Assembly (NCBI RefSeq): GCF_030160635.1
Contig: NZ_BSOS01000005.1
Span: 1 to 64,000 of the forward strand
Direction of reading: 5' to 3'
Length of the DNA: 64,000 bases
Source: Acidocella aquatica
GTDB lineage: Bacteria; Pseudomonadota; Alphaproteobacteria; Acetobacterales; Acetobacteraceae
The notes under the pieces are model-generated. The model worked only from the letters and a program-made list of their open reading frames with translations, made no database searches and had not been told where the DNA came from. Position numbers and translations under genes: made by a program. Shown here one piece after another: positions 31,398 to 57,139 of this stretch (position 1 is the stretch's first letter; every line of letters begins with the position of its first letter).

Positions 31398-31907
31398 ATG
31401 ATCCTGCCAACCGCCGAAGACATGCTGCGCACCATCGAAGGCACGTTCGACACCGTCATCCGCCCAACCCTGACCGGCACAACCGAGCGCAGCGCCGCCG
31501 CCACCATCAGCCATCTGCTGCGGCTGGCCCGGCTGCGGCTGGAGCGGGAAGGGCAGGTGCTCTACGACGACATCGCCGCCCTGCGCGCCCTGCTCACCCA
31601 TATCCGCACCTATCTCGCGGGCATTGGCGAAGCCGCAGCCGTGGCCGCGCTGGACCCGGCGCTGGAACCCAAACCACTGGCGGAAGGCCAATATCCCACC
31701 CTCACGCTGGCCGGGCAGCAGGCAAGCGGCCTGCGCGGCGCGCTGGAAACCGCTCTGGCGCGGCTGCAGGAAATCCGCGATGTTCATGGCGCGGCGGCGG
31801 ATTATCAGCAGCTCCGCGCCGCCATCCGCACCTACATGGCCGAACAGCTCCGCCGCGAGAGCGAGTTGATCGAGCCTGCCTTCTGGGGCCAGGGGCCGCG
31901 ACGATAG
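31398..31907 (+). CDS. DUF6285/LvaB-like helical protein
   Basis: 169 residues from ATG 31398, 10 nt after the kinase-like gene, with GAGGC upstream. The N-terminal PTAEDMLRTIEGTFDTVIRP and TISHLLRLARLRLERE resemble DUF6285 proteins such as LvaB, the small partner of the 4-hydroxyacyl-CoA kinase LvaA. The rest is predicted all-helical and rich in Ala/Leu/Arg. The N-terminal domain of the kinase at 55652 has the same pattern (IPANRVLDALVKEFDKLRPL, then AIAHALRLMQAR), so this module exists both free and fused. Probable kinase accessory subunit. Confidence 0.55.
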   Translation: MILPTAEDMLRTIEGTFDTVIRPTLTGTTERSAAATISHLLRLARLRLEREGQVLYDDIAALRALLTHIRTYLAGIGEAAAVAALDPALEPKPLAEGQYPTLTLAGQQASGLRGALETALARLQEIRDVHGAAADYQQLRAAIRTYMAEQLRRESELIEPAFWGQGPRR

Positions 31908-31935
31908 TTAATTGCGGCGCCGCGGGCCAGGCAAC

Positions 31936-31965
31936 TTGACCGCAAGCATACCATAAGCTAGCCTT
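31936..31965 (+). promoter_or_regulatory. GTAYGCT site (minus orientation) with -35-like box
   Basis: AGCATAC (31945-31951, GTATGCT on the other strand) lies just after a TTGACC hexamer (31936-31941), about 200 bp before the Rieske gene. The rest of the 31908-32151 gap shows no gene. Candidate promoter-operator of the 32152-40739 operon. Confidence 0.35.
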
Positions 31966-32151
31966 CCGTAAATGTTTGCGCATGGCGGCACTGTCTGGCG
32001 TGGTTGATATTCTGGTATGGACCGGCGGTTGCGTGACCTGCCGTAAGGTTAACTTTTTTCGCGCGGGAAAAAATGGTAAGTCAGACAACTAAAAACCATG
32101 CGGGCAGGCAAACCCCGCGCAAAACAAAAACTTAAAAGGAGCGTTAAGGCC

Positions 32152-33549
32152 ATGGGCGTCGATTTCAGTAAAATTCAGGACGGATTTGCCACCGCTGCAA
32201 GCCCGCTGACCAAGGACCTGCTGCTGCACGACTCCAAACCGGTGGAGCCAGCCCTGCGCGAGACCGGCAACTTCCTCGCCCCGCCGAAAAAAATCCCCTT
32301 CAATCGTTATTTTGACCGTGACTTCGCCAAGCTCGAAAAAGAGAAGGTCTGGAAAAAATGCTGGCAGGTGGTCGGCCGCGAGGAAGATCTACCCCAGGTC
32401 GGCGACCGCAAGCCCTATGATGCCGGTGAGCTTTCCTACATTATCATCCGCTCCGGCCCCAACGAGTTCCGCGCGCTGGAGAACGCCTGCAAACATCGCG
32501 GCACCCGGCTGTGCCACACCGCCACCTCTGCCCCCACGATCAAATGCCCGTTCCACGCCTGGGAATGGAATGTCGACGGCTCGGTGAAGAACATCCCCAG
32601 CCGCTGGGATTTCCCCTCGGTGACGGATGAGGAATATCATCTGCCCGAGGCCAAAATCGGCACCTGGGGCGGGTTCATCTTCATCAACCCAGACCCGGAT
32701 GCCGGCCCGCTGGAAGACGCGCTGGGCGTGTTGCCGAAACATTTCGGCCCGCGCGAGAGCACTGACCGCTTCACCTATGTCGGTTTCCGTAAAAAAATGC
32801 GCTGTAACTGGAAACAGGCGCAGGAAGCGTTTTTCGAGGCCTATCACGTCATCGAAACACATCCCCAGATCATGACCTATAACGGTGACACCACGACCAG
32901 CTATGACATCTGGGACGACGGCAAATCCCAGGTCAGCCGCTCCATTACCCCCTCCGCGGTGCCAAGCGGGCATCTGGGCGATGACGCCTCGCGTTTGCTG
33001 GCCGCCGAGGAATCCTTGAAAACCTTCGCGCTGATGTTCCCCGGCGTGGAGCTGCCAAAAATCAAATCCGCCGAAACCGGCCGCGCGGAAGTGGCCGAGT
33101 GGCGCCGCCAGATGATGGGCGCGGCGCTGGGCGTTGATTTCTCCAGCTGCTCGGATTCCTACATGCTGGACGCGACGCAGTATTTCATGTTCCCCAATTT
33201 CTGGCCCTGGTTCGGCGAAGGTCTGCCGCTCACCTATCAGTTCACCCCCTATGGTGATAATCCCGACGAATGCGTGATGGAGACCCGTCTCACGCTCCCC
33301 ATCCCGGCCAACGGCCAGCGCCCCCCGGCGTCCGAAATCGTCGACATCGACTTCGACACGCCGATCGCCTCGGTCCCGGCCATGGGCATCATGTCGACGA
33401 TTTTTGACCAGGACCTCTCCAACCTGCCGCTGGTGCAGCTTGGCCTGCACTCAACGCGCGACCCGCAGGCAAGCGCCACCCTCGGCCTGTATCAGGAGAG
33501 CCGCATCCAGGCCTTTCATGACATGCTGGACCGCAAGATCGCGGAGTGA
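32152..33549 (+). CDS. Rieske non-haem iron oxygenase, alpha subunit
   Basis: 465 residues from ATG 32152 (AAGGAG at 32136-32141). Rieske ligands are CKHRG (Cys113, His115) and CPFH (Cys132, His135); the iron-site histidines lie in EAYHVIETH (His232, His237). It is a paralogue of the oxygenase at 7129, sharing the N-terminal layout and the FPNFxPWxGEGLPLTY segment near the C terminus. No beta subunit or reductase adjoins. It heads the CoA-pathway operon, so it may hydroxylate the ring before or after CoA activation. Substrate unknown. Confidence 0.9.
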   Translation: MGVDFSKIQDGFATAASPLTKDLLLHDSKPVEPALRETGNFLAPPKKIPFNRYFDRDFAKLEKEKVWKKCWQVVGREEDLPQVGDRKPYDAGELSYIIIRSGPNEFRALENACKHRGTRLCHTATSAPTIKCPFHAWEWNVDGSVKNIPSRWDFPSVTDEEYHLPEAKIGTWGGFIFINPDPDAGPLEDALGVLPKHFGPRESTDRFTYVGFRKKMRCNWKQAQEAFFEAYHVIETHPQIMTYNGDTTTSYDIWDDGKSQVSRSITPSAVPSGHLGDDASRLLAAEESLKTFALMFPGVELPKIKSAETGRAEVAEWRRQMMGAALGVDFSSCSDSYMLDATQYFMFPNFWPWFGEGLPLTYQFTPYGDNPDECVMETRLTLPIPANGQRPPASEIVDIDFDTPIASVPAMGIMSTIFDQDLSNLPLVQLGLHSTRDPQASATLGLYQESRIQAFHDMLDRKIAE

Positions 33550-33636
33550 AGGCCTTACAAGCCCACGCGAACCAATACGGCGGACCGGAAACTCCGGTAC
33601 GCCGTAACTGTGATTGACTTTAATGGAGATGAGCTG

Positions 33637-33867
33637 ATGGCGACTGAGATTTTGCTGCCGAAACTGGGCTTTTCGATGAACGAGGGCGTGCTGGCCGAAT
33701 GGCTGGCCGCCGACGGGGCCACCGTGAAGGAGGGTGAGCCGCTGTTCGCCCTGGAAAGCGACAAGTCGACGCAGGAAGTCGAAGCGCCGGCCTCCGGCAC
33801 GCTGCGCATCATCAAGCAGCCGGGCGAAACCTATGAGGTTGGCACTGTGCTGGGCGAGATCGTCTAG
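33637..33867 (+). CDS. Stand-alone lipoyl domain protein
   Basis: 76 residues from ATG 33637 (GGAG 8 nt upstream). It is a single biotinyl/lipoyl domain: ILLPKLGFSMNEGVLAEWLA, then ESDKSTQEVEAPASG with Lys43 as the expected lipoylation site (DKS context favours lipoyl over biotin). In most complexes this domain is fused to E2; here it ends 2 nt before a separate E2 catalytic-domain gene. It would carry the acyl group between E1 (50012/51006) and E2. Confidence 0.9.
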   Translation: MATEILLPKLGFSMNEGVLAEWLAADGATVKEGEPLFALESDKSTQEVEAPASGTLRIIKQPGETYEVGTVLGEIV

Positions 33868-33869
33868 GC

Positions 33870-34625
33870 ATGCCCGATGTCCCCAGCCTGCTGGCAGCTC
33901 TGGCGCCATTGCCGGAAGCCGATTTTTCGGAATTCGGCGAAGTCGAGATCAAGCCGCTTTCGCGCATCCAGCAACTCACCGGCGCCTTTCTCGGCCGCAA
34001 CTGGGTCACGATTCCGCATGTCACGCATCATGATGAAGTTGACGTCACCGAGACCGAGACCCGCCGCACCGCCTGGAACGCGGCCAACCCTGGGGTGAAG
34101 CTGACCCCGGTGGTGCTGCTGGCCCGCGCCGTGGCGCAGCTGCTGGCCGATTTTCCGCAGTTCAACGCCTCGCTGGGCGCTGACGGCAAATCCCTGGTGC
34201 TGAAAAAATACATCAACATCGGCGTCGCCGTTGACACCCCCAAAGGCTTGGTCGTCCCGGTCATTCGCGGCGTGCCCGAAAAATCCCTGGCCGAACTGGC
34301 TGGCGCCCTCACCGCGCTGGCCGAAAAGGCGCGCACCAAGGGCCTCTCCATGGCGGAGATGTCAGGCAGCTCCATGTGCGTCTCCTCGCTGGGCCATATC
34401 GGCGGCACCGCCTTCACCCCCATCATCAACGCGCCGGACGTCGCCATTCTGGGCGCCACCGCCATCCAGCTTCGCCCCGCCCCGGCGGCGGATGGCGGCA
34501 TCGTCTGGCGCAAGATGCTGCCGCTCTCGCTCAGCTACGACCATCGCGTCATCAACGGCGCCGATGCGGCGCGGTTCGTGAAGGCGATCGGCACGCGGCT
34601 GGCGGCGGAAAATCTTTTCGCGTGA
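33870..34625 (+). CDS. 2-oxoacid dehydrogenase E2 catalytic domain, stand-alone
   Basis: 251 residues comprising only the acyltransferase core: the start of the catalytic domain (IKPLSRIQQLTGAFLGRNWV), GSSMCVSSLGHIGG and the active-site loop SYDHRVINGADAARF. The His-x3-Asn form (HRVING) also occurs in Azotobacter-type E2 and is compatible with activity. There is no lipoyl domain, and no peripheral-subunit-binding domain could be seen. Together with the preceding lipoyl protein and the E1 genes at 50012-51992 it would form a split dehydrogenase complex for a pathway 2-oxoacid. Confidence 0.88.
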   Translation: MPDVPSLLAALAPLPEADFSEFGEVEIKPLSRIQQLTGAFLGRNWVTIPHVTHHDEVDVTETETRRTAWNAANPGVKLTPVVLLARAVAQLLADFPQFNASLGADGKSLVLKKYINIGVAVDTPKGLVVPVIRGVPEKSLAELAGALTALAEKARTKGLSMAEMSGSSMCVSSLGHIGGTAFTPIINAPDVAILGATAIQLRPAPAADGGIVWRKMLPLSLSYDHRVINGADAARFVKAIGTRLAAENLFA

Positions 34626-34656
34626 CGTGAAATAAAACAGGCCAAGGTCAGGGATA

Positions 34657-36249
34657 ATGTCAGTATCTGAAACGCTTGCGGCCCGTGCGGCGGGGTTGCC
34701 AATGGATCTGTCCGCCATGGTGCTGCCGCAGGACTACCCAAGCCTGTTCGCGGCGCGCACCCCTTCGCGCACCGCGCTGATCTTCAAAGACTGGCAGTGG
34801 GACTACGCCGGGCTGGACCGCGCCGCCAACGCCATGGTCACGCTCTTTCGCGAAGCCGGCGCCGGCCCCGGCGCGCGCGTCGCCTATATCGGCAAAAACT
34901 GCGACCTGTTCTTCATCGTGCTGTTCGGCGCCTACCGCGCGGGCATCGTGCTGGTGCCGGTGAACTGGCGCAACACGGCGGTGGAAACCCGCTACGTGCT
35001 GGAAGACAGCCAGGCCACGCTCCTGCTCGCCGACACCGAGTTCCTGCCCATGCTGGCCGAGGCCGATACCAGGGGCCTGACTCGCATCGTCGTGGACGCC
35101 GATGGCGCCGATGGCCTGCGCGCCAAACTCGCAGCCGCCACCCCCGCCCCGCGTAAAACCCTGGACCCGCACGCCCCCAGCCTGCAACTCTACACCAGCG
35201 GCACCACCGGCAAGCCCAAAGGCGTGCTCACCAGCCAGCACGCCATGGGCGCGCAACGCCTGGCCGAACTCGTCTGCCCGGCGTTTGATGACTGGCGGGA
35301 CGACGAGACCCTGCTCTCGCCGCTGCCCAGCTTCCACATCGGCGGCATGTCCTGGGTGCTGTGCGGCCTGGTGCGCGGCCAGAGCGTGGTCATCACCGCC
35401 GACGCCACCCCCGCCGCGATCCTCGACCTCATCGTCGCGCACAGCATCACCCGCACCTTCATCGTGCCAACCCTGGTGCGCGCCCTCATCGAGGAGATGA
35501 ACCACCGTGGCATCCGCGCGCCCTCGCTGCGCGGCATCCACTACGGCGCCGCCGCCATGGACGCCGCCCTTCTGGAGCGCTCGCTTGAAAATATCGGCTG
35601 CCGTTTCCTGCAATATTACGGCATGACCGAGGCCACCGGCAGCATCACCTTGCTGGAACCGCGTGACCATGACCTCTCCCGCCCGCGCCTGCTGCGCTCG
35701 GTCGGCAAGCCGCTGCCGGGCATCACCATCGAAATCCGCGGGCCTGACGGCACGCTGCTCAACATCGAGCAGCCCGGCGAAATCTGGGTGAAGGGGCCGA
35801 GCCTGTTCATCGAATACTGGAACCGCCCGGATGCCACCGCCGAGGTGATGAAGGACGGCTGGTACCGCTCCGGCGATGGCGGCCTGCTCAACGCCGAGGG
35901 CTATGTTTTTCTCACCGACCGCATCAAGGACATGATCGTGACGGGCGGTGAAAATGTCTACCCGGCCGAGGTTGAAGCCGTGTTGCGCCAACACCCGGCG
36001 GTGCAGGATTGCGCGGTGTTCGGCCTGCCGCACGAAAAATGGGGTGAGGGCGTCACCGCCGCGGTGGAGCTGCGCCCCGGCCACACGGCCACGGCCGAGG
36101 CGTTGATCGCCTTCGCGCGCGTCTCGCTCGCCGCCTATAAAATCCCCCGCCGGATTGAGTTTGGCGTCACCCTGCCGCGCACGGCGGCGGGCAAAATCCA
36201 GCGCGGCGCCGTCCGCCTGAGCTTCCTGGCCCAGGAGGGAGACCGCTGA
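34657..36249 (+). CDS. Acyl-CoA synthetase (AMP-forming)
   Basis: 530 residues of the ANL superfamily: LQLYTSGTTGKPKGV (phosphate loop), YYGMTEATGS (A5), GWYRSGDGG (A7), DRIKDMIVTGGENVYP (hinge A8) and LPRTAAGKIQRG with the catalytic Lys (A10). It activates a carboxylic acid as acyl-AMP, then acyl-CoA. Position before two acyl-CoA dehydrogenases suggests it starts degradation of a side-chain or ring-derived acid. Its stop overlaps the next start. Confidence 0.92.
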   Translation: MSVSETLAARAAGLPMDLSAMVLPQDYPSLFAARTPSRTALIFKDWQWDYAGLDRAANAMVTLFREAGAGPGARVAYIGKNCDLFFIVLFGAYRAGIVLVPVNWRNTAVETRYVLEDSQATLLLADTEFLPMLAEADTRGLTRIVVDADGADGLRAKLAAATPAPRKTLDPHAPSLQLYTSGTTGKPKGVLTSQHAMGAQRLAELVCPAFDDWRDDETLLSPLPSFHIGGMSWVLCGLVRGQSVVITADATPAAILDLIVAHSITRTFIVPTLVRALIEEMNHRGIRAPSLRGIHYGAAAMDAALLERSLENIGCRFLQYYGMTEATGSITLLEPRDHDLSRPRLLRSVGKPLPGITIEIRGPDGTLLNIEQPGEIWVKGPSLFIEYWNRPDATAEVMKDGWYRSGDGGLLNAEGYVFLTDRIKDMIVTGGENVYPAEVEAVLRQHPAVQDCAVFGLPHEKWGEGVTAAVELRPGHTATAEALIAFARVSLAAYKIPRRIEFGVTLPRTAAGKIQRGAVRLSFLAQEGDR

Positions 36250-37340
36250 TGAGCTTCGCCGTCACCGAGGCGCAAACCATGCTGGCTGACATGCTCACCC
36301 GCCTGCTCGCCAGCGAGAACGAGTTCGAGGCCCGCCGCCACCGCCTCGAAGGTCCAGCGCCGGACCGCCTGGCGCTATGGCCGCTCCTCGCCGAACAAGG
36401 CGTGCTGGGCGCGGCCTTCCCTGAAGAATTCGGCGGTTTCGGCGGCTCCATGCGCGACCTCGCGGTCATCATGGAGCGCGCCGGGCAGAGCCTCGTGGTC
36501 GAACCCCTGCTCGCCAGCACCGTCTGCGGCCGCGTGCTGCTGGCAGCGGGCGAAGCTGACCAGCTGGTTGAGCTGATCGCCGGTGAACGCATCCTGGCCT
36601 TCGCCCATATGGAAGGTTTTGACCCCTTTGCGCCACCGGCCACGCAGGCCCAGCCGCAAGGCGATGGTTTCGTGCTGAACGGCAACAAGCAGGCTGTCCG
36701 CCACGCTGACCTCGCGCATGGCTTCATCGTCACCGCCACGCTCAACGGCGCCCCCGCCTGCTTCCTGGCCGAGGCCGATGCCCAGGGCGTGCAGCGCGAG
36801 GCCTTCCGCCTGCTCGACGCCGCCGCCGCCGCGACACTCACCTTCACCAACACCCCGGCGCGATATCTGGCCGGCGCCGATGCCCTGGCCGATGCCCTGC
36901 TCTGGTCCCACGCCGGTCTGGCAGCCGAGGTCTCGGGCATCGCCGACGCGCTCAACACCGCGACCTTCGCCTATCTCAACACCCGCAAACAATTCGGCTT
37001 CCCCCTGGCCAGCTTCCAGGCCCTGCAGCACCGCGCGGCGGACATGTTCGCCGCCGCCGAGGAAACCCGCATCCTCGCCGCCCGCACCATCACCGCGATC
37101 GATGCCGCAGCTCCCGGCCGTTTCGCCCTCGCCAGCGCCGCCAAAACCGTGGCGGATGACGCCGGGCGCAAAATCGGCCACGAGGCGGTGCAGATGCACG
37201 GCGGCATGGGCGTCTCCGACGAGCTGAACATCAGCCACTACATGCGCCGTCTCGCCGCCATCCGCGCCGAGCTGGGCAGCGCCGATGTCCACCGCGCGCG
37301 TTTTGCCAGCCTGAACGAGGGAGCATCTCATGCTGCTTGA
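36249..37340 (+). CDS. Acyl-CoA dehydrogenase family protein (possible non-catalytic/heteromeric subunit)
   Basis: 363 residues. Recognisable ACAD features are EQGVLGAAFPEEFGGFGGSM, TRKQFGFPLASFQALQHRAA and QMHGGMGVSDELNISHYMRR. The middle domain is short and the YxExPxSGSD flavin-site motif is missing or replaced (NGNKQAVRHADLAHG). The start (ATG 36249) overlaps the ligase stop and the end overlaps the next ACAD gene by 11 nt, implying equimolar synthesis. Pairs like this form alpha2beta2 enzymes (ChsE-type) in steroid side-chain degradation. Family certain, heteromer inferred. Confidence 0.87.
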   Translation: MSFAVTEAQTMLADMLTRLLASENEFEARRHRLEGPAPDRLALWPLLAEQGVLGAAFPEEFGGFGGSMRDLAVIMERAGQSLVVEPLLASTVCGRVLLAAGEADQLVELIAGERILAFAHMEGFDPFAPPATQAQPQGDGFVLNGNKQAVRHADLAHGFIVTATLNGAPACFLAEADAQGVQREAFRLLDAAAAATLTFTNTPARYLAGADALADALLWSHAGLAAEVSGIADALNTATFAYLNTRKQFGFPLASFQALQHRAADMFAAAEETRILAARTITAIDAAAPGRFALASAAKTVADDAGRKIGHEAVQMHGGMGVSDELNISHYMRRLAAIRAELGSADVHRARFASLNEGASHAA

Positions 37341-38532
37341 TGAAAGCCCCGATCTCGCCGCCTTCCGCGCCGAGGTGCGCGGCTTCGTGCGCCAACACCT
37401 CCCCGCCGACATCGCCCGCAAAGGCCGCCTCGGCCTGGAATACGGCAAGGATGATTTCGTCCGCTGGCAAAAAATCCTGCGCAACAAAGGCTGGTTCGCC
37501 GCCGCCTGGCCCCAGGCCGCCGGCGGCGCCGGCTGGGATTTGCAAAAGCAGCTGGTGTTCATTCAGGAAACCGCCCTCAACGACGCCCCCTTCATCATCC
37601 CCTATGGCGTCAACATGGTCGGCCCCGTGCTGTATAATTTCGGCACGCCGGAGCAGCAGGCCCGCCACCTGCCGGGCATCCTCTCCTCCGATGTCTGGTG
37701 GTGCCAGGGCTATTCCGAACCCAACTCCGGTTCCGACCTCGCCTCGCTGAAAACCACGGCGGTGCGCGATGGCGGCCACTACATCGTCAACGGCACCAAA
37801 ATGTGGACCACCGAGGCGCATTGGGCCGACTGGATGCACTGCCTCGTCCGCACCGACCGCGAGGCAAAACCCCAGCGCGGCATTTCGTTTTTGCTGATCG
37901 ACATGAAAACGCCGGGCATCGATATCCGCCCCATCGTCACCATCGACGGTCAGCACCACACCAACCAGGTGTTTCTCGATGACGTGCGCGTGCCGGTGGA
38001 AAACCTGGTGGGCGGGGAGGGGGGCGGCTGGCCGATCGCCAAATTCCTGCTCTCCAACGAGCGCGTCGCCATCGCCGACACGGGGCCGAAGCTGAAACTG
38101 CTCGCTGAAATCAAGGAAATCTTCGCAAAAATCGAGGTATCTCCAACCGTTTCCGAAACCAGTAAAATCCTGTTCCGGCAAAAACTCGCCAACGCTGAAA
38201 TCCAGCTCACCACTTTATGCGCGCTGGAGCAGGAATACGTGAAAATGTGGGCTGGCGGCGGCTCCAAGGAAGGTCCGCACGCCTCGGTCCTCAAAATCCG
38301 CGGCACCGAGATCCTCCAGCTCCTCTCCGAAATCGCCCTCGAACTCGAAGGCCCGCTCGGCGCCGCGCACGACCCGGCTGATCTGCATCTGGGCGCGGGC
38401 ATCACCCCCTCTCCGGCGCAACGCGCCAGCCTGATGGCGCATCACTACCTCTACGGCCGTTGCTGGTCGATTTTCGGCGGCACGAATGAAATCCAGCGTG
38501 GCATCATCGCGCGATCCATCCTGGCGGCATAA
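37330..38532 (+). CDS. Acyl-CoA dehydrogenase
   Basis: 400 residues with full ACAD motifs: GYSEPNSGSDLASLKTTA (flavin contact), NGTKMWTTEAHWADW, and the C-terminal FGGTNEIQRGIIARSI. It oxidises acyl-CoA to 2-enoyl-CoA, passing electrons to ETF. It starts inside the 3' end of the preceding ACAD gene (translational coupling). Partner of that subunit in a proposed heteromeric dehydrogenase; could act alone. Confidence 0.92.
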   Translation: MLLDESPDLAAFRAEVRGFVRQHLPADIARKGRLGLEYGKDDFVRWQKILRNKGWFAAAWPQAAGGAGWDLQKQLVFIQETALNDAPFIIPYGVNMVGPVLYNFGTPEQQARHLPGILSSDVWWCQGYSEPNSGSDLASLKTTAVRDGGHYIVNGTKMWTTEAHWADWMHCLVRTDREAKPQRGISFLLIDMKTPGIDIRPIVTIDGQHHTNQVFLDDVRVPVENLVGGEGGGWPIAKFLLSNERVAIADTGPKLKLLAEIKEIFAKIEVSPTVSETSKILFRQKLANAEIQLTTLCALEQEYVKMWAGGGSKEGPHASVLKIRGTEILQLLSEIALELEGPLGAAHDPADLHLGAGITPSPAQRASLMAHHYLYGRCWSIFGGTNEIQRGIIARSILAA

Positions 38533-38546
38533 CACAGGAGCACCCC

Positions 38547-39839
38547 ATGAACGATATGGCGAATGTTGATCCATCATCGATTTTCCGGCCGGAAATTCTC
38601 TCCGAGCCACATGCATTTCTGAAATCCTTGCGTGAGAGCGCGCCGGTGGCGCGCGTCACCGATGACAAAGGCCGCGACATCTATCTCGTCACCAGCTACG
38701 CGCTGATCGAGGAAGCCTCCAAGCGCGCCGAGGATTTCTCCAGCCAGGTTGGCCATCTTTTGATGGGCGACGGCGGCAACCCGGAGGTTGATGCCATCCT
38801 CGCGCAGGAATGGGTGCAACCCGCGCTGCTGCTCATCTCCGACGACCCGGAACACAAGCGCTACCGCTCCCTGGTCAATGCCGTCTTCGCCATGGGCCGC
38901 ATCGCCAACATGCACGATATCATCGCCCGCATCGTCGATGATCTGATCGATGATTTCATCGAGCGCGGCGAAGTTGATTTCGTCAACGAATTCGCCATTC
39001 TCCTGCCCACCTACGTTATCGCTGACATTCTCGGCCTCCCGCGCGACAAATACGCGCTGGTGCGCAAATGGTCGGACTCTGTCATCCGCATCGTCAGCCG
39101 CATGGGCACGCACGCGGAAGAACTTGCCGCCGCCAACGACATTCTGGAATTCCGCCGCTTCATCCGCGCCACCATCCGCGCCCGCCGCGCGGTCCCCGCC
39201 GACGACCTGATCTCCTATCTCATCAACGTCCGCGTCGAAGGCTTCGAACCATTGACGGATGAAGAAATCGCCCCCCTGGCCTTCGAGATCGCCGTCGCCG
39301 GCAACGAGACAACGCGCAACACCCTGATGAGCGGCATCGTGCGGCTGCTCAACAACCCTGACCAGCTCGCCCAGATCAAGGCCGACCCAAGCCTTATCAG
39401 CAACGCCATCGAGGAATTGCTGCGCTTTGAGACCCCCGCCACCTCGCTCTGGCGCATCGCCACGCGTGATACCGAGCTTGGCGGCGTGGCCATCCCGAAA
39501 GGCGGCCAACTGCTGCTGCGTTTTGATGCCGGAAACCGCGACGAAAGCCGATTCGAAAACCCCGACCAGTTCGACATCCACCGCCGCAACGCGCGGCTGC
39601 ATCAATCCTTCGGCGGCGCCAACATCCACCGCTGCCTCGGCCAGATGCTGGCCCGCAAGGAAATGCAGATCGCCTTCCCCAAACTCTTCGCGCGCCTGCA
39701 AAACTTGCGCGTCATACCCGAAAAAAGTGACACCAACTACTGGCCGGGCCTGCTTCATCGCGGCATCACCTCCGTATACCTGGGCTTCACCCCTGGCCCC
39801 AGGCTGAATGGCCAGAGCCAGCCCAGCGTTTCACCATGA
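38547..39839 (+). CDS. Cytochrome P450 with unusual haem-binding loop
   Basis: 430 residues. The I-helix AGNETT (251-256) and downstream ExxR (EELLRF) are normal. The haem loop reads SFGGANIHRCLG with Cys363: counted back from Cys, the canonical Phe (-7) is Gly and the Gly (-4) is Asn, as if one residue were inserted. It lies 14 nt after the ACAD gene with CACAGGAGC upstream, so it is in the CoA operon and might hydroxylate a CoA ester or its acid. Redox partner may be the ferredoxin at 44549. Confidence 0.9.
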   Translation: MNDMANVDPSSIFRPEILSEPHAFLKSLRESAPVARVTDDKGRDIYLVTSYALIEEASKRAEDFSSQVGHLLMGDGGNPEVDAILAQEWVQPALLLISDDPEHKRYRSLVNAVFAMGRIANMHDIIARIVDDLIDDFIERGEVDFVNEFAILLPTYVIADILGLPRDKYALVRKWSDSVIRIVSRMGTHAEELAAANDILEFRRFIRATIRARRAVPADDLISYLINVRVEGFEPLTDEEIAPLAFEIAVAGNETTRNTLMSGIVRLLNNPDQLAQIKADPSLISNAIEELLRFETPATSLWRIATRDTELGGVAIPKGGQLLLRFDAGNRDESRFENPDQFDIHRRNARLHQSFGGANIHRCLGQMLARKEMQIAFPKLFARLQNLRVIPEKSDTNYWPGLLHRGITSVYLGFTPGPRLNGQSQPSVSP

Positions 39840-39941
39840 TCGTTTGACCATGACTAACGCGCCGTCATCGCGCGTCCGCGATAGGCAGGCTTGCTGAATG
39901 TAAACACGCGACATCCGAAACAATATCATTTGGAGGAAACC

Positions 39942-40739: not shown

Positions 40740-40743
40740 CCGG

Positions 40744-47406: not shown

Positions 47407-47460
47407 ACACATAGCCAACCCGCGCGCGGACGCGGTGTTGCGCCATTCACGGGGAAAACC

Positions 47461-48234: not shown

Positions 48235-48248
48235 AGCCGGATTTAATC

Positions 48249-49967: not shown

Positions 49968-50011
49968 ACAACCGCCTGTAACGACCGTCCACGAATTCGG
50001 GAGAGAAGAAC

Positions 50012-50995
50012 ATGTCCAACTACCCCAGACCGGATGCGGCCACGCTCCTGGAAATCTATAAAAAAGCAACGCTCATCAAGCAAAATGACGAGCGTATCAT
50101 AAAGCAGATGATGGCCGGCAAGCTGGTCACGCCGTATTATTCGCCGCGCGGGCAGGAGATCATCCCCTCCGCCATTTCCGTGAGCCTTGATGACGATGAT
50201 TACATCTGCACCATCTATCGCGGTATTCATGACATGCTGGCCAAAGGCTTCCCGCTGGGTGAACTCTGGGCCGAGCTGGCCGGCAAGGCCACGGGCACCT
50301 GCAAAGGCAAGGGCGGCCCGATGCACCTCACGCACCCGGCCAAGGGCATGATGGTCACCACCGGCATCGTCGGCTCCTCCATGCCGATCGCCACCGGCCT
50401 CGGCTGGGCCGCCAAGCTGGACGGCAAAGGCCGCGTCTCGGTCGCCAATTTTGGTGACGGCGCCGCCAACATCGGCGCCTTCCATGAGTCGCTGAACCTC
50501 GCCGCGCTGTGGAAGCTCCCGGTCATTTTCGTGTGCCAGAACAACCTCTACGCCGAGCACACCAGCTTCGCCGACTCCACCCTCATCGAAAAACTCTCCA
50601 GCCGCGCCGCCGCCTACGGCATGCCCGGCGTTACGGTAAACGGCAACGACCCCGACGAGATGTACGGCGCCGCGAAAATCGCCATCGAGCGCGCCCGCGC
50701 CGGCGAAGGCCCAACCCTGATCGAGGCCCTGACCTTCCGTTTCAACGGCCATCTCATCGGCGATGCCGCCCCCTACATCCCCAAGGCCGAGCTGGAAGCC
50801 GCCAAGGCGGTTGACCCGGTGCCCGCCCTGCGCGCCCGGCTGATCGCGGCTGGCATCAGCACCGAGGCCGCCCTGGCCGCGATCGAAGCCGCCATCGACG
50901 CCGAGATCGACGCCGCCGTGGCAGCCGCCAACACGGCGCCTTTCCCCGAGATCATCGAACTGAAACGCGACGTGTTCGCCGAAGAAATTGCGTGA
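50012..50995 (+). CDS. 2-oxoacid dehydrogenase E1 component, alpha subunit
   Basis: 327 residues. The thiamine-diphosphate motif is present as GDGAANIGAFHESLNLAALW ending in NN after VIFVCQ, and GKGGPMHL with THPAKGMMVTTG is typical of pyruvate/acetoin dehydrogenase E1alpha. With E1beta it decarboxylates a 2-oxoacid and passes the acyl group to the lipoyl protein. GGGAGAGAAGAAC precedes the ATG. Context suggests a pathway 2-oxoacid rather than central pyruvate metabolism. The lipoyl and E2 parts are 16 kb away; no E3 in the window. Confidence 0.92.
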   Translation: MSNYPRPDAATLLEIYKKATLIKQNDERIIKQMMAGKLVTPYYSPRGQEIIPSAISVSLDDDDYICTIYRGIHDMLAKGFPLGELWAELAGKATGTCKGKGGPMHLTHPAKGMMVTTGIVGSSMPIATGLGWAAKLDGKGRVSVANFGDGAANIGAFHESLNLAALWKLPVIFVCQNNLYAEHTSFADSTLIEKLSSRAAAYGMPGVTVNGNDPDEMYGAAKIAIERARAGEGPTLIEALTFRFNGHLIGDAAPYIPKAELEAAKAVDPVPALRARLIAAGISTEAALAAIEAAIDAEIDAAVAAANTAPFPEIIELKRDVFAEEIA

Positions 50996-51005
50996 GGATC
51001 AGCCA

Positions 51006-51992
51006 ATGACCGAAATCAAACAACTAAACCTCATCCAGGCGATCAATCTGGCGCTCAACGATGCCATGGAAGCCGACCCCAAAGTCATCCTCCTCGGCGA
51101 GGAAGTCGGCGACAAGGAGGAAGGCGGCGTCATGGGCGTCACCAAGGGCCTCTCCACCAAATTCGGCACCGGCCGTGTAAAATCCACGCCAATTTCCGAA
51201 CAGGCGATCATCGGCGCGGCCATCGGCGCTTCCGTCGGCGGTTACCGCCCGGTCGCCGAGATCATGCTGATGAACTTCATGGCCGTCCCGATGGACATGA
51301 TCGTCAACCACGCCGCCAAGCTGCGCTTCATGTCCGGCGGGCAAACCAGCGTCCCCATCGTCATCCGCACCATGACCGGCGCCGGCTTCTCCACCGGCGG
51401 CCAGCATTCTGACTACACCGAGGCCTGGTTCGCCCACACCCCCGGCCTGAAAGTCGTCGCCCCCTCCAACCCTGATGACGCCTACGGCCTGATGCGCTCC
51501 GCCATCGAGGACAACGACCCGGTGATCTTCATCGAGAACCTGCCGAGCTACTGGACCCCCGGCCCCGTCACCGGCCAGCATGTGCCCATCGGCAAGGCCA
51601 AGGTCGCTCTCGAAGGAACGGACATCACCATCGTTGCCCACTCGCGCATGGTCACCGAAGCCCTCGCCGCCGCCAAAACCCTCGCCAAGGACGGCATTTC
51701 GCTCGAAATCGTCGACCTGCGCACCATCTCGCCGTGGGACCGCGCCACCGTGCTCGCCTCGGCCGAAAAAACCGGCCGCGCCATCATCGTGCATGAGGCC
51801 GTCAAGCAGTTTGGCATCGGCGCTGAAATCGCCTCGGTCATTTCCGAGGAGCTGTGGGGCAGGCTGAAAGCCCCGGTGAAGCGCCTCGGCGGCGCCTTCA
51901 GCCCGGTGCCGTTCTCCAAACCTCTGGAAAACGCCTTCGTGCCCACCGCCGCGGACATCGCAGCCACCGCGCGCGCAATCGTGGCCGCTTGA
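51006..51992 (+). CDS. 2-oxoacid dehydrogenase E1 component, beta subunit
   Basis: 328 residues from ATG 51006, 10 nt after E1alpha. The N-terminal LNLIQAINLALNDAMEADPK with ILLGEEVGDKEEGG and TPISEQAIIGAAIGASVGG are canonical E1beta sequences, as is the MTGAGFSTGGQHSD loop. The C-terminal transketolase domain is complete (VIVHEAVKQFGIGAEIASVI). It pairs with E1alpha in an alpha2beta2 enzyme. The close spacing and shared operon with a kinase and SDR tie it to this catabolic pathway. Confidence 0.93.
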   Translation: MTEIKQLNLIQAINLALNDAMEADPKVILLGEEVGDKEEGGVMGVTKGLSTKFGTGRVKSTPISEQAIIGAAIGASVGGYRPVAEIMLMNFMAVPMDMIVNHAAKLRFMSGGQTSVPIVIRTMTGAGFSTGGQHSDYTEAWFAHTPGLKVVAPSNPDDAYGLMRSAIEDNDPVIFIENLPSYWTPGPVTGQHVPIGKAKVALEGTDITIVAHSRMVTEALAAAKTLAKDGISLEIVDLRTISPWDRATVLASAEKTGRAIIVHEAVKQFGIGAEIASVISEELWGRLKAPVKRLGGAFSPVPFSKPLENAFVPTAADIAATARAIVAA

Positions 51993-52014
51993 ACCACCAA
52001 CGGGAAATGACGCC

Positions 52015-53172
52015 ATGACCGATATCGTTGAGACAATCAAAGCCGCATACGAGTTGGAGCATCAGCTCGCCCGCGAAGCCGTGACCGCGGACGACCTGCC
52101 GCTCTCCTTCCAGGAAATCACCCCGCGCTGGCTCACCGCCGTGCTCTGCGGCAACGTCCGCGGCGCCGAGGTGGTCGAGGTTAAACTCGGCCCGGTGGAC
52201 AATGGCTCCTCCAACCGCCGCCGCCTGCACATCAAATACAATCACGAAGGCACCCACGCCAAACTGCCCACCGCCATTTTCTGCAAGGCGACGCACGACC
52301 TCGCCAACCGCATCGTCCTCGGCGTCTCCGGCGGCGGCATCTGCGAGGCGAATTTCTACAACCAGATCCGCCCGCTGCTGCCCATCGAGGCCCCGGTTTC
52401 CTACTTCGCCAGGTTCGATGAGGAAACCTACAATTCCATGATCATGCTGGGTGACATCAGCGACACCGTCACCGAATTCTGCAACCACAACACCGATATG
52501 ACCCGCGCGCGCGCCGAAAGCCAGATGCGCCTGCTCGGCAAGCTGCACGGCGCCTGCTACGGCCATGAAATCTTGAGCCGCCGCCTCGGCGTGTTCCCCA
52601 CATTCAAGGAGTTCTTCGGCAACTCCATGAAGTTCGGCCTGCGCGCTGGCACCGATGCCGGCTTCCTCGCCGCCCAGGAAGTCATCCCCGCACGTCTCTA
52701 CGCGCGCCACGCCGAAATCTGGGACGCCACCATCGCCGCCGTTGATGAAGGCGACCGCCTGCCCAACACCCTCTCGCACGGCGATGTGCATTTAAAAAAC
52801 TGGTACGTCGCCGGCAACGGCGAAATGGGCCTGAGCGACTGGCAATGCTGCGGCCGCGCGCATTGGGGCCGCGACGTCGCCTACGCCATCACCTGCGCGC
52901 TCACGGTGGAAAACCGCCGCTTGTGGGAGCGTGACCTACTGGCCCTCTACCTTGACGAAATGCACCGCGCCGGCGGCCCGAAAATCACCTTTGACGAAGC
53001 CTGGACCAGCTACCGCCAGCAGATCGTCTCCGCCCTCGCCTGGTGGACCGTCACCCTCTGCCCGCCGCCCGGCCTGCCGGACATGCAACCGCGTGACATC
53101 ACCATCGAGTTCATCAAACGCATCGCCACCGCCATGGATGATGTCGACACCCTCGGCGCCTTCAAGGCCTGA
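52015..53172 (+). CDS. Phosphotransferase (aminoglycoside-phosphotransferase family), intact active site
   Basis: 385 residues. The catalytic loop is canonical, HGDVHLKN (His255, Asp257, Asn262), followed by the metal-binding LSDWQ (Asp275). The N-terminal half contains LGPVDNGSSNRRRLHIKY (nucleotide loop) and AIFCKAT (beta-3 Lys). Proteins of this sort in catabolic clusters can phosphorylate hydroxyacyl-CoAs (LvaA, ACAD10/11 N-domain) to allow elimination. It follows E1beta by 22 nt and is followed by an SDR after 3 nt. Substrate inferred, kinase fold firm. Confidence 0.85.
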   Translation: MTDIVETIKAAYELEHQLAREAVTADDLPLSFQEITPRWLTAVLCGNVRGAEVVEVKLGPVDNGSSNRRRLHIKYNHEGTHAKLPTAIFCKATHDLANRIVLGVSGGGICEANFYNQIRPLLPIEAPVSYFARFDEETYNSMIMLGDISDTVTEFCNHNTDMTRARAESQMRLLGKLHGACYGHEILSRRLGVFPTFKEFFGNSMKFGLRAGTDAGFLAAQEVIPARLYARHAEIWDATIAAVDEGDRLPNTLSHGDVHLKNWYVAGNGEMGLSDWQCCGRAHWGRDVAYAITCALTVENRRLWERDLLALYLDEMHRAGGPKITFDEAWTSYRQQIVSALAWWTVTLCPPPGLPDMQPRDITIEFIKRIATAMDDVDTLGAFKA

Positions 53173-53175
53173 ACC

Positions 53176-53961
53176 ATGCCCGCCGCCGGAGATCATTTCA
53201 GCTTCGGCGGCAAGGTCGCCATCGTCACCGGCTCCACCCGCGGCATCGGCCGCGCCACCGCGCAACTCCTGGCAAAACGCGGCGCCACCGTCGTCATCTC
53301 CTCGCGCAAGCCCGAAGCCTGCGCCGCCGTGTGCGGCGAGATCATCACCAGCGGCGGCCACGCCATCGCCATCCCCGCGCATGCCGGCAGCGCGCAAGAT
53401 TGCCAGCGCCTGATTGAAGAAACACAAAACCGCCTCGGCCGCCTGGACATCGCGGTCGCCAATGCGGCGGTCAACCCCGTGTTCTCGCCAGTCAGCAGCC
53501 TGGCCGAGGAAAGCTGGACCAAGGTCATCAACACCAACCTCACCGCCGCCTGGCACCTCGCCCGTTTCGCGCTCCCCGTCATCGCCCAACAGGGCGGCGG
53601 CGCCATGGTCTTCGTCTCCTCCATCAACGGCCGGTTCGCCATGCCCAACTCCGGCGCCTACGGCATCTCCAAAGCCGCCCTCGAGCAGCTCACGCGCCAG
53701 CTCGCCGTGGAGTGGGGACCAAAAAACCTGCGCATCAACGCCGTCGCTCCCGGCACCACCCGCACGGATATGATCCGCGCCCTGGCCGCCGACCCCGCAT
53801 TCATCAAATCAGTGCAATCACGCACCCCCATGCAGCGCATCGCCGAACCAGAGGACATCGCCGCCGCCATCGCCTTCCTCGCTTGCGATGCCGCCCGCCA
53901 CATCACCGGCCAGGTCCTCACCGTCGACGGCGGCGAGACGATCCTGCGCGGCACCCTATAA
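53176..53961 (+). CDS. Short-chain dehydrogenase/reductase (SDR)
   Basis: 261 residues. GKVAIVTGSTRGIGRATAQL, VISSRKPE (a basic residue suggesting NADP), ANAAVNPVFSP and YGISKAALEQLTRQL are classical SDR features. The C terminus HITGQVLTVDGGETI is complete. It starts 3 nt after the kinase stop with no clear ribosome site, so it is probably translated by coupling. Last gene of the 49155 operon, followed by palindromic repeats. Confidence 0.88.
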   Translation: MPAAGDHFSFGGKVAIVTGSTRGIGRATAQLLAKRGATVVISSRKPEACAAVCGEIITSGGHAIAIPAHAGSAQDCQRLIEETQNRLGRLDIAVANAAVNPVFSPVSSLAEESWTKVINTNLTAAWHLARFALPVIAQQGGGAMVFVSSINGRFAMPNSGAYGISKAALEQLTRQLAVEWGPKNLRINAVAPGTTRTDMIRALAADPAFIKSVQSRTPMQRIAEPEDIAAAIAFLACDAARHITGQVLTVDGGETILRGTL

Positions 53962-53985
53962 AAATCATCGCGCGCGCATCTTTGC

Positions 53986-54143
53986 TGAGGGCGATTCACG
54001 CTTTCGGCTCGCTCGGTTGAGCGAACCTCAAGCGATCGCACTAGAGCCTGATCGCTTTAAGTGCGATCCGGCTCTAGCCGTTTTTCTGAGGGCGATTCAC
54101 GCTTTCGGCTCGCTCGGTTGAGCGAACCTCAAGCGATCGCACT
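53986..54143. repeat. Composite intergenic repeat A-B-A
   Basis: Two near-identical 57-bp A units (53986-54042 and 54087-54143), each with TCGCTC-GGTT-GAGCGA inside, flank a B unit (54043-54075), an inverted repeat with arms AGAGCCTGATCGC-like and GCGATCCGGCTCT. B-A copies recur at 61471-61571 and 62694-62794. It sits between convergent genes and may act as a terminator or mRNA stabiliser. Confidence 0.85.
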
Positions 54144-55238
54144 CTAAAGCCCGAAACTGCGGATATGGTGGGTCGCGTAGCTGTCCATCAAATCACCATC
54201 GCCGCGCCGCCCGTCATATTCCAGCGACATGAAGTGCATGTAAACCAGCAGGTTCTGCCAATACATTTTTGGAATCATCGAACGAGTCGTACCGGTAATC
54301 CGATGCACGCTCCCTTGCGCATCCTCAATCTCCAGCTCAATGCCCTTCACCAGCAACCGGCTGCCCTCGGCGAACAACGTGCGCACATCCATCCTCACCA
54401 CCGGCACCGGCCTGCCCGCGCGCGCAATCCAGCCACTGCGAAGATTAAGGCTCGGCGTCTTGCCGCCGGACTCCCATTTGTTCGCCCCGCTCGCCTCCGG
54501 CCCCGCCACCACCTCGTTCCAGTGCGGCCCGAATTCACGGCCCTCCAGCATGCCAGTATCCAGCCACGCCACCACAAACCCGCAATCATCGCCAAACCAC
54601 CCCGTCATCCACCGGTAGGGCGGGGTGCGCTCGGCCTGTTCCGGGCGATTATACCCCCAGGAGCGGTCGCGCATATAAAACCCGTTGATAACATAAGCCT
54701 CACCATCCAGCGTGACCTGGCCTGACGTTTTCATCAGCTGCGTGAAATGCTTGCCTCCCGGGCGGCCCACCGGCGGCATCGCGCCGGTGCAGTTCAAGTC
54801 CAGCGCAAACCCGCGCGCCGGATCGTCGAACCACATATGCACCTCCTCCAGCGGCCGAACCACCTTCATCCGCACGCGGCACCCGCCCATCTGCACGGTC
54901 CAGTCGGCGTTATCCCTCACCGCCGGCAGATACAAATGCTCCAGAAAATAATCAGCCTCCAACTGATGCGCGAGAATCCTCGCCCCGCGATACACGAAAA
55001 TATGCACCGACATGGTATTCAGCGCATGATGCCACAGCACATAGATGTTGCAGTGAATATCCGCCTCGGGAATATTAAACCCATACAAATTCGTCTCGAT
55101 GGCGGTGAAATGCGCATCCGGCGCGGGCAGATGCAGATAATCATCGCCCGCCGCCACGGCCGAAAAATCAACCGCCTCGCCCCGGTAGCTGCTTTCCTTC
55201 CAGGCGCCGTCGCGCAAACTTGCCGTCTCGCGTGTCAT
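54144..55238 (-). CDS. DUF7064-like protein, paralogue 3
   Basis: 364 residues of the same family as the proteins at 15901 and 29065: NLYGFNIPEADIHCNIYVLW (50-69), GGKHFTQLMKTSGQVTLDGE (161-180) and RDRSW (190-194). The order and spacing parallel those of the copy at 15901. Its start is within the ATGA overlap with the Rieske ferredoxin gene upstream, so the two are cotranslated. This suggests a redox-linked role, but no catalytic function is known. The protein ends in a repeat region. Confidence 0.6.
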   Translation of the reverse strand: MTRETASLRDGAWKESSYRGEAVDFSAVAAGDDYLHLPAPDAHFTAIETNLYGFNIPEADIHCNIYVLWHHALNTMSVHIFVYRGARILAHQLEADYFLEHLYLPAVRDNADWTVQMGGCRVRMKVVRPLEEVHMWFDDPARGFALDLNCTGAMPPVGRPGGKHFTQLMKTSGQVTLDGEAYVINGFYMRDRSWGYNRPEQAERTPPYRWMTGWFGDDCGFVVAWLDTGMLEGREFGPHWNEVVAGPEASGANKWESGGKTPSLNLRSGWIARAGRPVPVVRMDVRTLFAEGSRLLVKGIELEIEDAQGSVHRITGTTRSMIPKMYWQNLLVYMHFMSLEYDGRRGDGDLMDSYATHHIRSFGL

Positions 55239-55537
55239 ATCTCAATCCCCAGATGATCCCCATGCTCCGTGCAGGGAAAAAATTTCAGCCCCTTCGCCGT
55301 CAGCGGCGAGAGCGAGCGCCCATCCTCCAGGCTGAACCGCGCCCCATGGTGCGGGCACATCACGCTATTGTGGCGCACCCGCGCCCCCTCCATTGAAAGT
55401 TGCTGGTGCGGGCATTGTTCATCCATCGCATGCAGCCCCCCGGCGGTGCGGCAAATCAGCACCCGCTGCCCGGCAACCTCAACAATCACGCTCCGGCCCG
55501 CATCCAGCGGCGGTAGCGCCACAGTCACTTTTGTCAT
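55235..55537 (-). CDS. Rieske-type 2Fe-2S ferredoxin
   Basis: 100 residues from ATG 55537 (GGGAG 6 nt upstream). Cluster ligands: CPH (Cys42, His44) and CPHH (Cys61, His64), spaced as in biphenyl/naphthalene dioxygenase ferredoxins. It likely donates electrons to one of the two Rieske oxygenases (7129 or 32152), which lack an adjacent ferredoxin. Its stop overlaps the start of the DUF7064-like gene by 4 nt (ATGA). Confidence 0.92.
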   Translation of the reverse strand: MTKVTVALPPLDAGRSVIVEVAGQRVLICRTAGGLHAMDEQCPHQQLSMEGARVRHNSVMCPHHGARFSLEDGRSLSPLTAKGLKFFPCTEHGDHLGIEI

Positions 55538-55587
55538 TTCAACTCCCAACGCCGCCGGGTTTCATCTTGTCAGATCGTGCCCCAGAA

Positions 55588-55605
55588 GGCAGTATGCTAG
55601 CTAAC
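55588..55605 (+). promoter_or_regulatory. GTAYGCT site upstream of the kinase-fusion gene
   Basis: GTATGCT (55592-55598) inside AGTATGCTAGCTAAC, 54 bp before ATG 55652, in the divergent gap with the Rieske ferredoxin. The TATGCT could double as a -10 hexamer; a TTGTCA (55568-55573) lies about 20 bp upstream, slightly too far. Matches the motif at 58627. Confidence 0.4.
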
Positions 55606-55651
55606 TTTGTTCCAGACGGTCAAGGAGCAAAGACACACCGGAGAGAACCCC

Positions 55652-57139
55652 ATGCTGATCCCCGCCAACCGGGTCCTTGATGCGCTGGTCAAGGAATTTG
55701 ATAAACTCCGCCCCCTGATTGCCGATTCCGGCACCGATGGGTCCGGCGCGCAGGCCATCGCCCATGCGCTGCGCCTCATGCAGGCCCGCCAGTCCGGTGA
55801 CACCACCGCCCTGCGCGCGCAATTCGCCGGGCTGGAGGCCGCGGTGGAAGCCGCCGCCCCCCACCTTGGCACCCATGCCGCCCCGGAACTGCACGCCGTG
55901 CGCGCCCTCATCGCCACCGCTGATGAAGAGACCGGCCTGGGCGCGCTGGAAGCCCTGTGGCGCGAGGCCCTGGCCGCCACCGAGGCGCTGGTCGCCGCCC
56001 TTAACAGCGCACCAGTCTCGCCCGCCACCCGCCAGCAAGCCACCCGCATTTTCTCCGCCTGGGAAGCCGGTGACCTCACCCGCCAAATGGACGCCCCGGT
56101 GCATAAAACCGAAGGCGCCACAAAGGAAGTTGACATCACCGCCGAGACCCTCACCGCCTACCTGCGCGACCGCTTCAACGAACCAACCCTCGAAGTCACC
56201 AGCCTCACCCCGCTCGCCGGCGGCTTTGGCAAGCAAACCACCATCTTCGCCACCAAGGGCCAAGCCCTCTCCGGCGAATTCGTCATGCGCCGCGACCTCG
56301 GTGAAAACGCCGGACTCGATAACGACTGCCATTTGATCGTGCGCGAATACCCCGTCATCCGCGCCGCCTTTGAGCGCGGTTTCCCCGCCCCCGACGCCCT
56401 CTGGCTCGACACAGAACACCGCCTCCTCCCCGGCGGAGATTTCATCATCATGCGCAAATCCGAAGGCGTCATCGGCGGCAATTTTTTCGGCGCCAGCACC
56501 GAAATCCCCGCCGGCCTCGCCGACGCTTTGGCCGATGAAATGGCCAAACTCCACAACCTCGAACCCCTGCGCGAACTCGGCAACCTCACCGATTCCATCC
56601 AGACCGATCTGTGGGACATGGACCTCACCGCCTGCATCACCCGCTACATCGCCAACTGGTACAGCTTCTACCTCGCCGAATCCCACATGCCTTCGCCCGC
56701 CATCACCGCCATCTACGGCTGGCTGCTCGAAAACGTGCCCCACCGCACCGGCAAACCCAGCCTCCTCCACGGTGACATCGGCTTCCACAACTTCCTCTTC
56801 CACGAAGGCAAAATGAGCTGCCTGCTCGATTGGGAATTCGCCCACCTCGGCGACCCCGCCGAAGAACTCGGCTACGTCAAAGTCACCGTAGGCGCCTCAC
56901 TCGACTGGGAGCGCTTCATGGCCCGCTACCACGCCGCCGGCGGGCGCGAGGTCGACGCAAAAACCCTGCACTACTTCCAAATCTGGGCCTTCATGCGCAA
57001 CGCCACCGCCGCCAATATCTTCGCCTCGCGCTTCAACGACGGCCTCGTCAACGACCTCAAATTAACCGTCCTGCCCTACCTCCACATCCCCAACTTCATC
57101 CGCGGCGCCCAAGCCCTCATCGACACCTACCCAGCCTAG
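55652..57139 (+). CDS. Fusion of LvaB/DUF6285-like domain and APH-family kinase
   Basis: 495 residues from ATG 55652 (GGAGAGAACCCC upstream). Residues 1-~150 are an all-helical domain resembling the free protein at 31398 (IPANRVLDALVKEFDKLRPL; AIAHALRLMQAR). Residues ~165-495 are a complete APH-type kinase: SLTPLAGGFGKQTTIF (nucleotide loop), HGDIGFHN (His373, Asp375, Asn380) and LLDWEF (Asp393). The fusion supports a physical partnership of the two modules, as with LvaA/LvaB. Likely substrate is a hydroxyacid or hydroxyacyl-CoA. Substrate inferred. Confidence 0.82.
   Translation: MLIPANRVLDALVKEFDKLRPLIADSGTDGSGAQAIAHALRLMQARQSGDTTALRAQFAGLEAAVEAAAPHLGTHAAPELHAVRALIATADEETGLGALEALWREALAATEALVAALNSAPVSPATRQQATRIFSAWEAGDLTRQMDAPVHKTEGATKEVDITAETLTAYLRDRFNEPTLEVTSLTPLAGGFGKQTTIFATKGQALSGEFVMRRDLGENAGLDNDCHLIVREYPVIRAAFERGFPAPDALWLDTEHRLLPGGDFIIMRKSEGVIGGNFFGASTEIPAGLADALADEMAKLHNLEPLRELGNLTDSIQTDLWDMDLTACITRYIANWYSFYLAESHMPSPAITAIYGWLLENVPHRTGKPSLLHGDIGFHNFLFHEGKMSCLLDWEFAHLGDPAEELGYVKVTVGASLDWERFMARYHAAGGREVDAKTLHYFQIWAFMRNATAANIFASRFNDGLVNDLKLTVLPYLHIPNFIRGAQALIDTYPA

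Follow-up and report, generated by a model that had tools for sequence, protein, structure and literature searches.

What reaction is served by a kinase-like gene that is followed at once by a gene for a small helical protein, when another kinase in the same stretch of DNA carries a similar domain at its N-terminus? The question is raised by contig NZ_BSOS01000005.1 of Acidocella aquatica (assembly GCF_030160635.1), of which positions 1 to 64,000 of the forward strand, here termed the window, were analyzed. The kinase-like gene is designated K (30320..31387, + strand), its neighbor S (31398..31907, +; 169 amino acids) and the fused kinase F (55652..57139, +; 495 amino acids), and all three open reading frames (ORFs) were confirmed at these positions. 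An initial annotation likened K and S to LvaA and LvaB and suggested that phosphorylation and elimination of a 4-hydroxyacyl-CoA may be part of the pathway. The analysis instead favors two sets of kinase and phosphate lyase that would use ATP to dehydrate an alcohol group of a putative hydrophobic substrate resembling a steroid or terpenoid, a reading to which a probability of ~0.58 is assigned. It also yields a new lead in the form of a conserved kinase-fold clade that lacks the catalytic Asp and is tied to the phosphosteroid-lyase family and to a helical partner.

Kinase and lyase-family genes in two sets

The gene that precedes K (29065..30282, +) specifies an Rv3169-family protein with an ARDHSWG motif. 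The protein scored 226 bits with NF053593, for which the cut-off is 150, and its residues 2-179 matched 25-phosphosteroid lyase (25-PSL; PDB 9fzn/9g2i) at E 9e-29 with RDxSWG common to both. Judged by its sequence, it is a member of the solved 25-PSL family with phosphate elimination as its predicted activity. A second protein, of the Rv3169/DUF7064 family (54144..55238, -; PF23212 E 5e-7), possesses MRDRSWG and adjoins F. Both K (PF01636 E 3.5e-14) and F (PF01636 E 2e-22) are APH-fold proteins whose solved relatives include ACAD11 as well as 9fsg/9ft5, titled 25-hydroxy steroid kinase (25-HSK). A profile of K matched the ACAD11 kinase domain at E 8e-24, 3dxp at E 1e-23 and 9fsg at E 8e-11; ACAD11 is the best solved sequence match for both proteins, with 3dxp level with it for K. 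The canonical catalytic residues are present in the kinase domain of F (56135..57139, +), which has an intact HGD (373-375), N380 and DWE (393-395), but are absent from K.

In the proposed scheme a kinase would phosphorylate the alcohol of the hydrophobic substrate and an Rv3169/25-PSL-family lyase would then eliminate the phosphate to generate an alkene. One set would comprise the 29065 lyase, K and the helical partner S, with K either using an atypical site or depending on F. The other would comprise the lyase-like 54144 protein and F, which is an intact kinase with an S-like helper at its N-terminus. By analogy with LvaB, which reportedly binds LvaA, the most probable role of S and of the fused helper is to associate with the kinase domain and to help form the substrate site.

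The proximity of the two gene types recurs elsewhere. Of 31 named K loci, 23 have a lyase-family gene no more than 2 kb from K. By comparison, such a gene was detected in one of 20 control regions that contain a DUF6285-associated kinase; these regions of ~12 kb each, where the contig permitted, were scanned from end to end with the hidden Markov model (HMM) and settings that were applied to the K loci, and their readable kinase loops all were intact H[GN]D. Among 38 genomes of the genus, the lyase family exceeded the cut-off in five, and the same five carry the K clade, with by far the strongest K hits, and F (genus members within a 147-genome search). As these genomes are related, the match represents co-occurrence and not independent trials. 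Other genomes of the genus gave weaker kinase hits, of which the six that were read (G006, G009, G013, G017, G023 and G031) have an intact HGD; further weaker hits occur in G007, G010, G018, G021, G022, G033 and G035. The A. aquatica genome itself has nine places (C5 at 29 and 55 kb, C6 at 70 and 94 kb, C73, C106, C24, C99, and C7) where no more than about 3 kb separates an Rv3169-family ORF from an APH-type kinase.

The neighborhood further includes genes for DUF1302, DUF1329, MMPL and Rieske proteins, and two acyl-CoA dehydrogenases are specified in the operon (36249 and 37330). The best matches of this pair are 4x28 (E 2e-50) and Tcur3481/3483 (E 3e-38 for Tcur3481), which are steroid-type heteromers. 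The 37330 protein matched ACAD11 at E 3e-16, and ACAD11 is absent among the best 60 of the 81 matches listed for 36249. These dehydrogenases bear directly on the proposal of the initial annotation, according to which 4-hydroxyacyl-CoA would be phosphorylated by K and S as an LvaAB-type pair and an LvaC/ACAD11-type dehydrogenase would carry out the elimination. That ACAD11 is the best solved match of the kinase domains and that S is distantly DUF6285-like in hhalign comparisons fit this proposal, as does the requirement for both LvaA and LvaB and the binding of LvaB to LvaA that are related in the available text of PMC6692424, citing Rand 2017. However, the frequent neighbor of K is a 25-PSL-family gene, which is rare among the DUF6285-kinase regions, and the dehydrogenases of the window are nearer to 4x28 and Tcur3481 than to ACAD11. 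The HCMR motif, named for ACAD10/11, was not found in the acyl-CoA dehydrogenases of the collected loci that were retrieved with the large dehydrogenase of the window, which is a narrow test. An LvaC/ACAD11-type dehydrogenase was not found in the window operon, the rest of the genome not having been searched for LvaC. In addition, K lacks the Asp that ACAD10/11 require (PMC12440821, available text). Thus, the 25-PSL-family neighbor, the 25-HSK-related kinases and dehydrogenases that are not nearest to ACAD11 together favor kinase and phosphate-lyase chemistry over that of LvaABC, and a 4-hydroxyacyl-CoA pathway is considered improbable.

Several observations weigh against the kinase and phosphate-lyase reading. 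The match to 25-PSL spans just residues 2-179 of the 405 in the 29065 protein. The 54144 protein falls under the NF053593 cut-off (E 1.3e-10) and had no PDB match at E 0.01 in a single-sequence search. As ACAD11, a 4-hydroxyacyl-CoA kinase, is the best match of the kinases, the kinase fold alone gives no support for steroids. The NCBIfam models that fit the dehydrogenase pair best, with scores under the cut-off, represent subunits of pimeloyl-CoA dehydrogenase. In eight of the 31 K loci (L081, L085, which reaches a contig end, L089-L093, and L099) the 2 kb around K are devoid of lyase-family genes, and six more genomes of the genus have lyase-family matches below cut-off with no comparable K-clade hit. 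Finally, with both the catalytic Asp and Asn missing from K, a functional kinase may be lacking from the first set in its present annotation.

The altered catalytic loop of K

At the site of the catalytic HGD...N, K reads KGTNGLGEE. The segment LCKGTNGLGEE (residues 207-217; 30938..30970, +) replaces the canonical HGDxxxxN loop and the later DWE is retained within SDWE (residues 228-231; 31001..31012, +), in which the position of the metal-binding Asp is kept. In the first comparison, by contrast, F and the kinases related to it have HGDxxxxN at that site, with HND in one relative. Residues K209, G210, G213, G215, E216, E217, S228, D229, W230, and E231 are invariant in an alignment of 29 K sequences and N212 occurs in 28 of them, whereas the position of the Asp is occupied by T in 20, N in eight and Q in one. 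The consensus, LCKG[TN]NGxGEE, is drawn from three phyla (Actinomycetota, Myxococcota and Pseudomonadota), with Myxococcota represented by one metagenome-assembled genome (MAG). Motif patterns were used to gather the sequences and bias their number; K departs from the first search pattern and still has KG.NG.GEE at eight loci (L080, L085, L087, L093, L094, L095, L097, and L098), and the K protein shown for L097 fits neither pattern. All 29 sequences form one clade with support of 100/99, the value in the Shimodaira-Hasegawa-like approximate likelihood ratio test (SH-aLRT) being 100 when the motif columns were omitted. F falls in another clade. The strings KGTNGLGEE, KGTNGxGEE, and KGNNGMGEE were unmatched in the literature collection searched and may still be in print.

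Annotation error or decay of the site was considered as the origin of the K sequence and was rejected because the motif is nearly invariant in the 29 sequences. The near-invariance suggests that the KG[TN]NGxGEE site probably still binds a ligand or metal. The ACAD10/11 kinase domain retains catalytic residues D220 and N225, and its activity is lost on an Asp to Ala change, as set out in the accessible part of PMC12440821. Since ACAD10/11 need this Asp, K is unlikely to use the standard route. K may be an atypical phosphotransferase or a non-catalytic substrate-binding subunit, atypical enzyme and pseudokinase being about equally likely. It is tentatively proposed that the clade possesses a novel APH-fold active site at which phosphoryl or nucleotidyl transfer, or a coupled dehydration, would proceed without the canonical Asp and with a requirement for S. 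As part of the same tentative proposal, Lys would replace the catalytic His, Thr/Asn the Asp, and the Glu-Glu pair the metal-binding Asn.

The possibility that K is a dead pseudokinase is a substantial one that falls somewhat short of even odds. In this case K and S would together serve F or the lyase as an allosteric or substrate-binding subunit, and F would perform all of the phosphorylation. This possibility accords with the loss of the catalytic D and N in 29 of 29 sequences and with the presence of F in all five genus genomes that carry K. An intact F-type kinase gene directly follows S at the locus on C6 of the same genome and at L100, L102, L103, and L105-L108, and a second, non-K kinase ORF occurs in 14 of the 31 named loci. 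Nevertheless, the other 17 have no second kinase ORF within the flanks, some of which end at contig ends, and a dead site would not usually retain a motif such as KG[TN]NGxGEE...SDWE nearly unchanged in Actinomycetota, Myxococcota, and Pseudomonadota alike.

Two loci that each contain two K genes were noted. In a betaproteobacterial MAG (L081:6001-8666), tandem K-type genes that both encode KGTNGLGEE are followed by one S gene. In an Acidimicrobiia MAG (L097, 601-7567), two modules of lyase, K and S lie on opposite strands, one with KGNNGLGEE and one with KGTNGLGEE. A 500-codon kinase frame between these modules (3293-4792) has a C-terminus that is S-like by eye (S HMM E 0.31).

The helical partner, free and fused

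The S gene starts 10 bp past the stop codon of K. The placement of the small protein after a kinase-like gene, which had been compared with that of LvaB, is a constant feature: in each of the 30 named loci that are readable beyond K, an S HMM located S directly after K. In detail, the S frame is shortened in L092, the match is partial in L096, and S follows the second of the two K genes in L081. S is not restricted to this context. A lyase-family gene, an intact kinase and an S-like partner co-occur without K in L042, L045, L160, and L161, and therefore the S-like partner is not bound to the K motif.

No match of S itself to a Pfam or NCBIfam family exceeded the cut-off. AlphaFold predicted a confident helical bundle (mean predicted local distance difference test (pLDDT) score 94.2) with helices at residues 6-24, 28-75, 79-89, 102-125, and 134-162. 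The corresponding model of the F N-terminal domain (residues 1-145; 55652..56086, +) has helices at 5-24, 30-72, 74-92, 96-119, and 124-143, with pLDDT of about 47-66 in the first 50 residues. The five-helix order thus is common to both, with lengths of 19, 48, 11, 24, and 29 residues in S versus 20, 43, 19, 24, and 20 in F. Pairwise similarity between S and residues 1-160 of F is weak (BLASTP E 0.024). The local alignment score of 66 was equaled in two of 1000 shuffles, and the semi-global score of 63 compares with 21 +/- 8 for shuffled sequences and was equaled in none of 1000.

More sensitive comparisons employed profiles. The S family, defined as the partners linked to K, was used in a deep HMM search of 7329 six-frame ORFs. 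Outside the family, 33 ORFs matched at E ≤ 1, comprising 13 DUF6285 proteins, four S-like partners of intact kinases, 13 fusion-type kinases and three others; this set is enriched, the loci having been chosen by kinase and DUF6285 searches, and some rows are the same DNA in two loci. F of the window was retrieved at E 0.0018. In hhalign, S and DUF6285 aligned with a probability of 87 and a score of 39.9, the best of 40 column shuffles reaching 18.8. The F N-terminal domain aligned with S at a probability of 82 and a score of 37.1 when built from three sequences (shuffle maximum 18.3), and at 59 and 32.5 when built from five (best of 20 shuffles 16.1). Direct comparison of the F domain with DUF6285 was at chance level, the score being reached by four shuffles in 40 and by three in 20, which speaks against the likeness.

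Fusion proteins proved to be of more than one kind. Two types of N-terminal domain were misaligned when combined (hhalign probability 7.6 with S and 0.8 with DUF6285) and were split into subtypes. The second subtype aligned with S at a probability of 75 with four sequences and 17 with eight, both of which beat all shuffles, and with DUF6285 at 8 and 35, respectively. Compared directly, the two subtypes were at chance level (5 of 40 and 3 of 20 shuffles reached the score), and the N-terminal domain of the L034-type fusion had no similarity to S in hhalign.

Could the likeness among S, the F domain and DUF6285 be the generic similarity of alanine-rich helical bundles? The modest BLAST value, the shuffle-level comparisons of the F domain with DUF6285 and of the two subtypes with each other, and the L034-type fusion would be in keeping with this explanation. 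But 30 of the 33 ORFs recovered outside the family from 7329 were DUF6285 proteins, S-like partners or fusion-type kinases, and S with DUF6285 and the F domain with S scored about twice the shuffle maximum. Moreover, the proteins have a common five-helix order and the same placement beside APH kinases. The HMM ranking and shuffles lower the likelihood of generic similarity, except for the L034-type fusion, and overall this explanation appears very unlikely. Homology of free S and the fused F domain is confirmed at the level of profiles and predicted helix order, in agreement with the claim that the kinase at 55652 carries an S-like N-terminal region.

The assignment to DUF6285 holds in part; the placing of LvaB itself in DUF6285 is that of the initial annotation. 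The Pfam model (PF19802) matched none of 31 S proteins at E ≤ 0.15, neither S nor F matched it at E ≤ 10 with HMMER filters on, and the A. aquatica genome yielded no DUF6285 match at E ≤ 0.001. On the profile evidence S is a distant relative of DUF6285 that lies outside the family as delimited by the curated model, and the F domain connects to DUF6285 only by way of S. Neither DUF6285 nor PF19802 was mentioned in the literature collection searched, and both may still be in print. Hemerythrin (Pfam) weakly matched six of 31 S proteins (best E 0.0063), perhaps via the C-terminal helix, which may be a clue to how the bundle arose.

The fusion had been taken as support for an obligate kinase-partner complex, an argument of a valid kind. 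Fusions exist in both orders: single frames in which the kinase precedes DUF6285, the reverse of F, occur in G015:C62, G107:C74, and G081:C1. The first of these (L158), from the same genus, is a 478-codon frame for a kinase with C-terminal DUF6285. However, with F and K in different clades the fusion alone is not proof of an equivalent complex between K and S, although contact between them may be expected. Overall the interpretation in the initial annotation is partly supported and its underlying observation is confirmed.

Neighboring genes and comparison with known systems

Other genes of the window have related features. A dehydrogenase E1 alpha/beta pair (50012-51992) is immediately followed by the gene for an ecdysteroid-kinase-like protein (52015-53172, +; PF02958 E 4e-8, with an APH match also), which appears to be a third, distant kinase whose substrate might be a steroid-like alcohol. 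A DUF7064 protein of the lyase group (15901-16893, -; PF23212 E 7e-12) had no APH-type kinase near it by HMM in C5:8000-24000. The K operon also includes, at 33610-34625, a small protein of lipoyl type (by eye) and a short 2-oxoacid dehydrogenase acyltransferase (PF00198), ~15 kb from the E1 subunits. These proteins are candidates for a 2-oxoacid dehydrogenase-like complex.

If the kinase and phosphate-lyase reading is correct, ATP-driven dehydration of this kind, described for anaerobic sterol degradation, would extend to bacteria that, as in the window, have P450 and Rieske oxygenase genes in their clusters, and about nine kinase and lyase neighborhoods would serve one genome. A general role as kinase partners would be suggested for DUF6285-like proteins. 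The K clade in addition offers a kinase-fold active site that is conserved and lacks the catalytic Asp.

The counterparts in Mycobacterium tuberculosis are Rv3168-Rv3169, whose adjacency is suggested by the locus numbers. In ACAD10/ACAD11, whose kinase domain is the closest solved match, the kinase is fused to an acyl-CoA dehydrogenase, whereas F is fused to a helical helper instead. The LvaA-LvaB pair of Pseudomonas putida resembles K and S in that a kinase gene is followed by a small partner gene. Nevertheless, LvaB is a 12 kDa protein and S comprises 169 residues with no Pfam DUF6285 match, K is without the catalytic residues, and the window operon has a lyase-family neighbor, with no ACAD11-type dehydrogenase found in it. 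The nearest parallel is provided by 25-HSK and 25-PSL of Sterolibacterium denitrificans (9fsg, 9ft5; 9fzn, 9g2i, 9g4c), which likewise are an APH-fold kinase and an Rv3169-family lyase. According to the available text of PMC8449060, 25-HSK phosphorylates the tertiary C25 alcohol of steroids; for removal of the phosphate, a C-O lyase distinct from the kinase is proposed. By analogy, ATP-dependent dehydration in the A. aquatica system would yield an alkene. The two systems differ in that the kinase and lyase genes of the window are adjacent, whereas that text saw no lyase candidate near the 25-HSK gene; that K is without HGD...N; and that a helical partner, free or fused, accompanies the kinases of the window, none being mentioned for 25-HSK in the same text.

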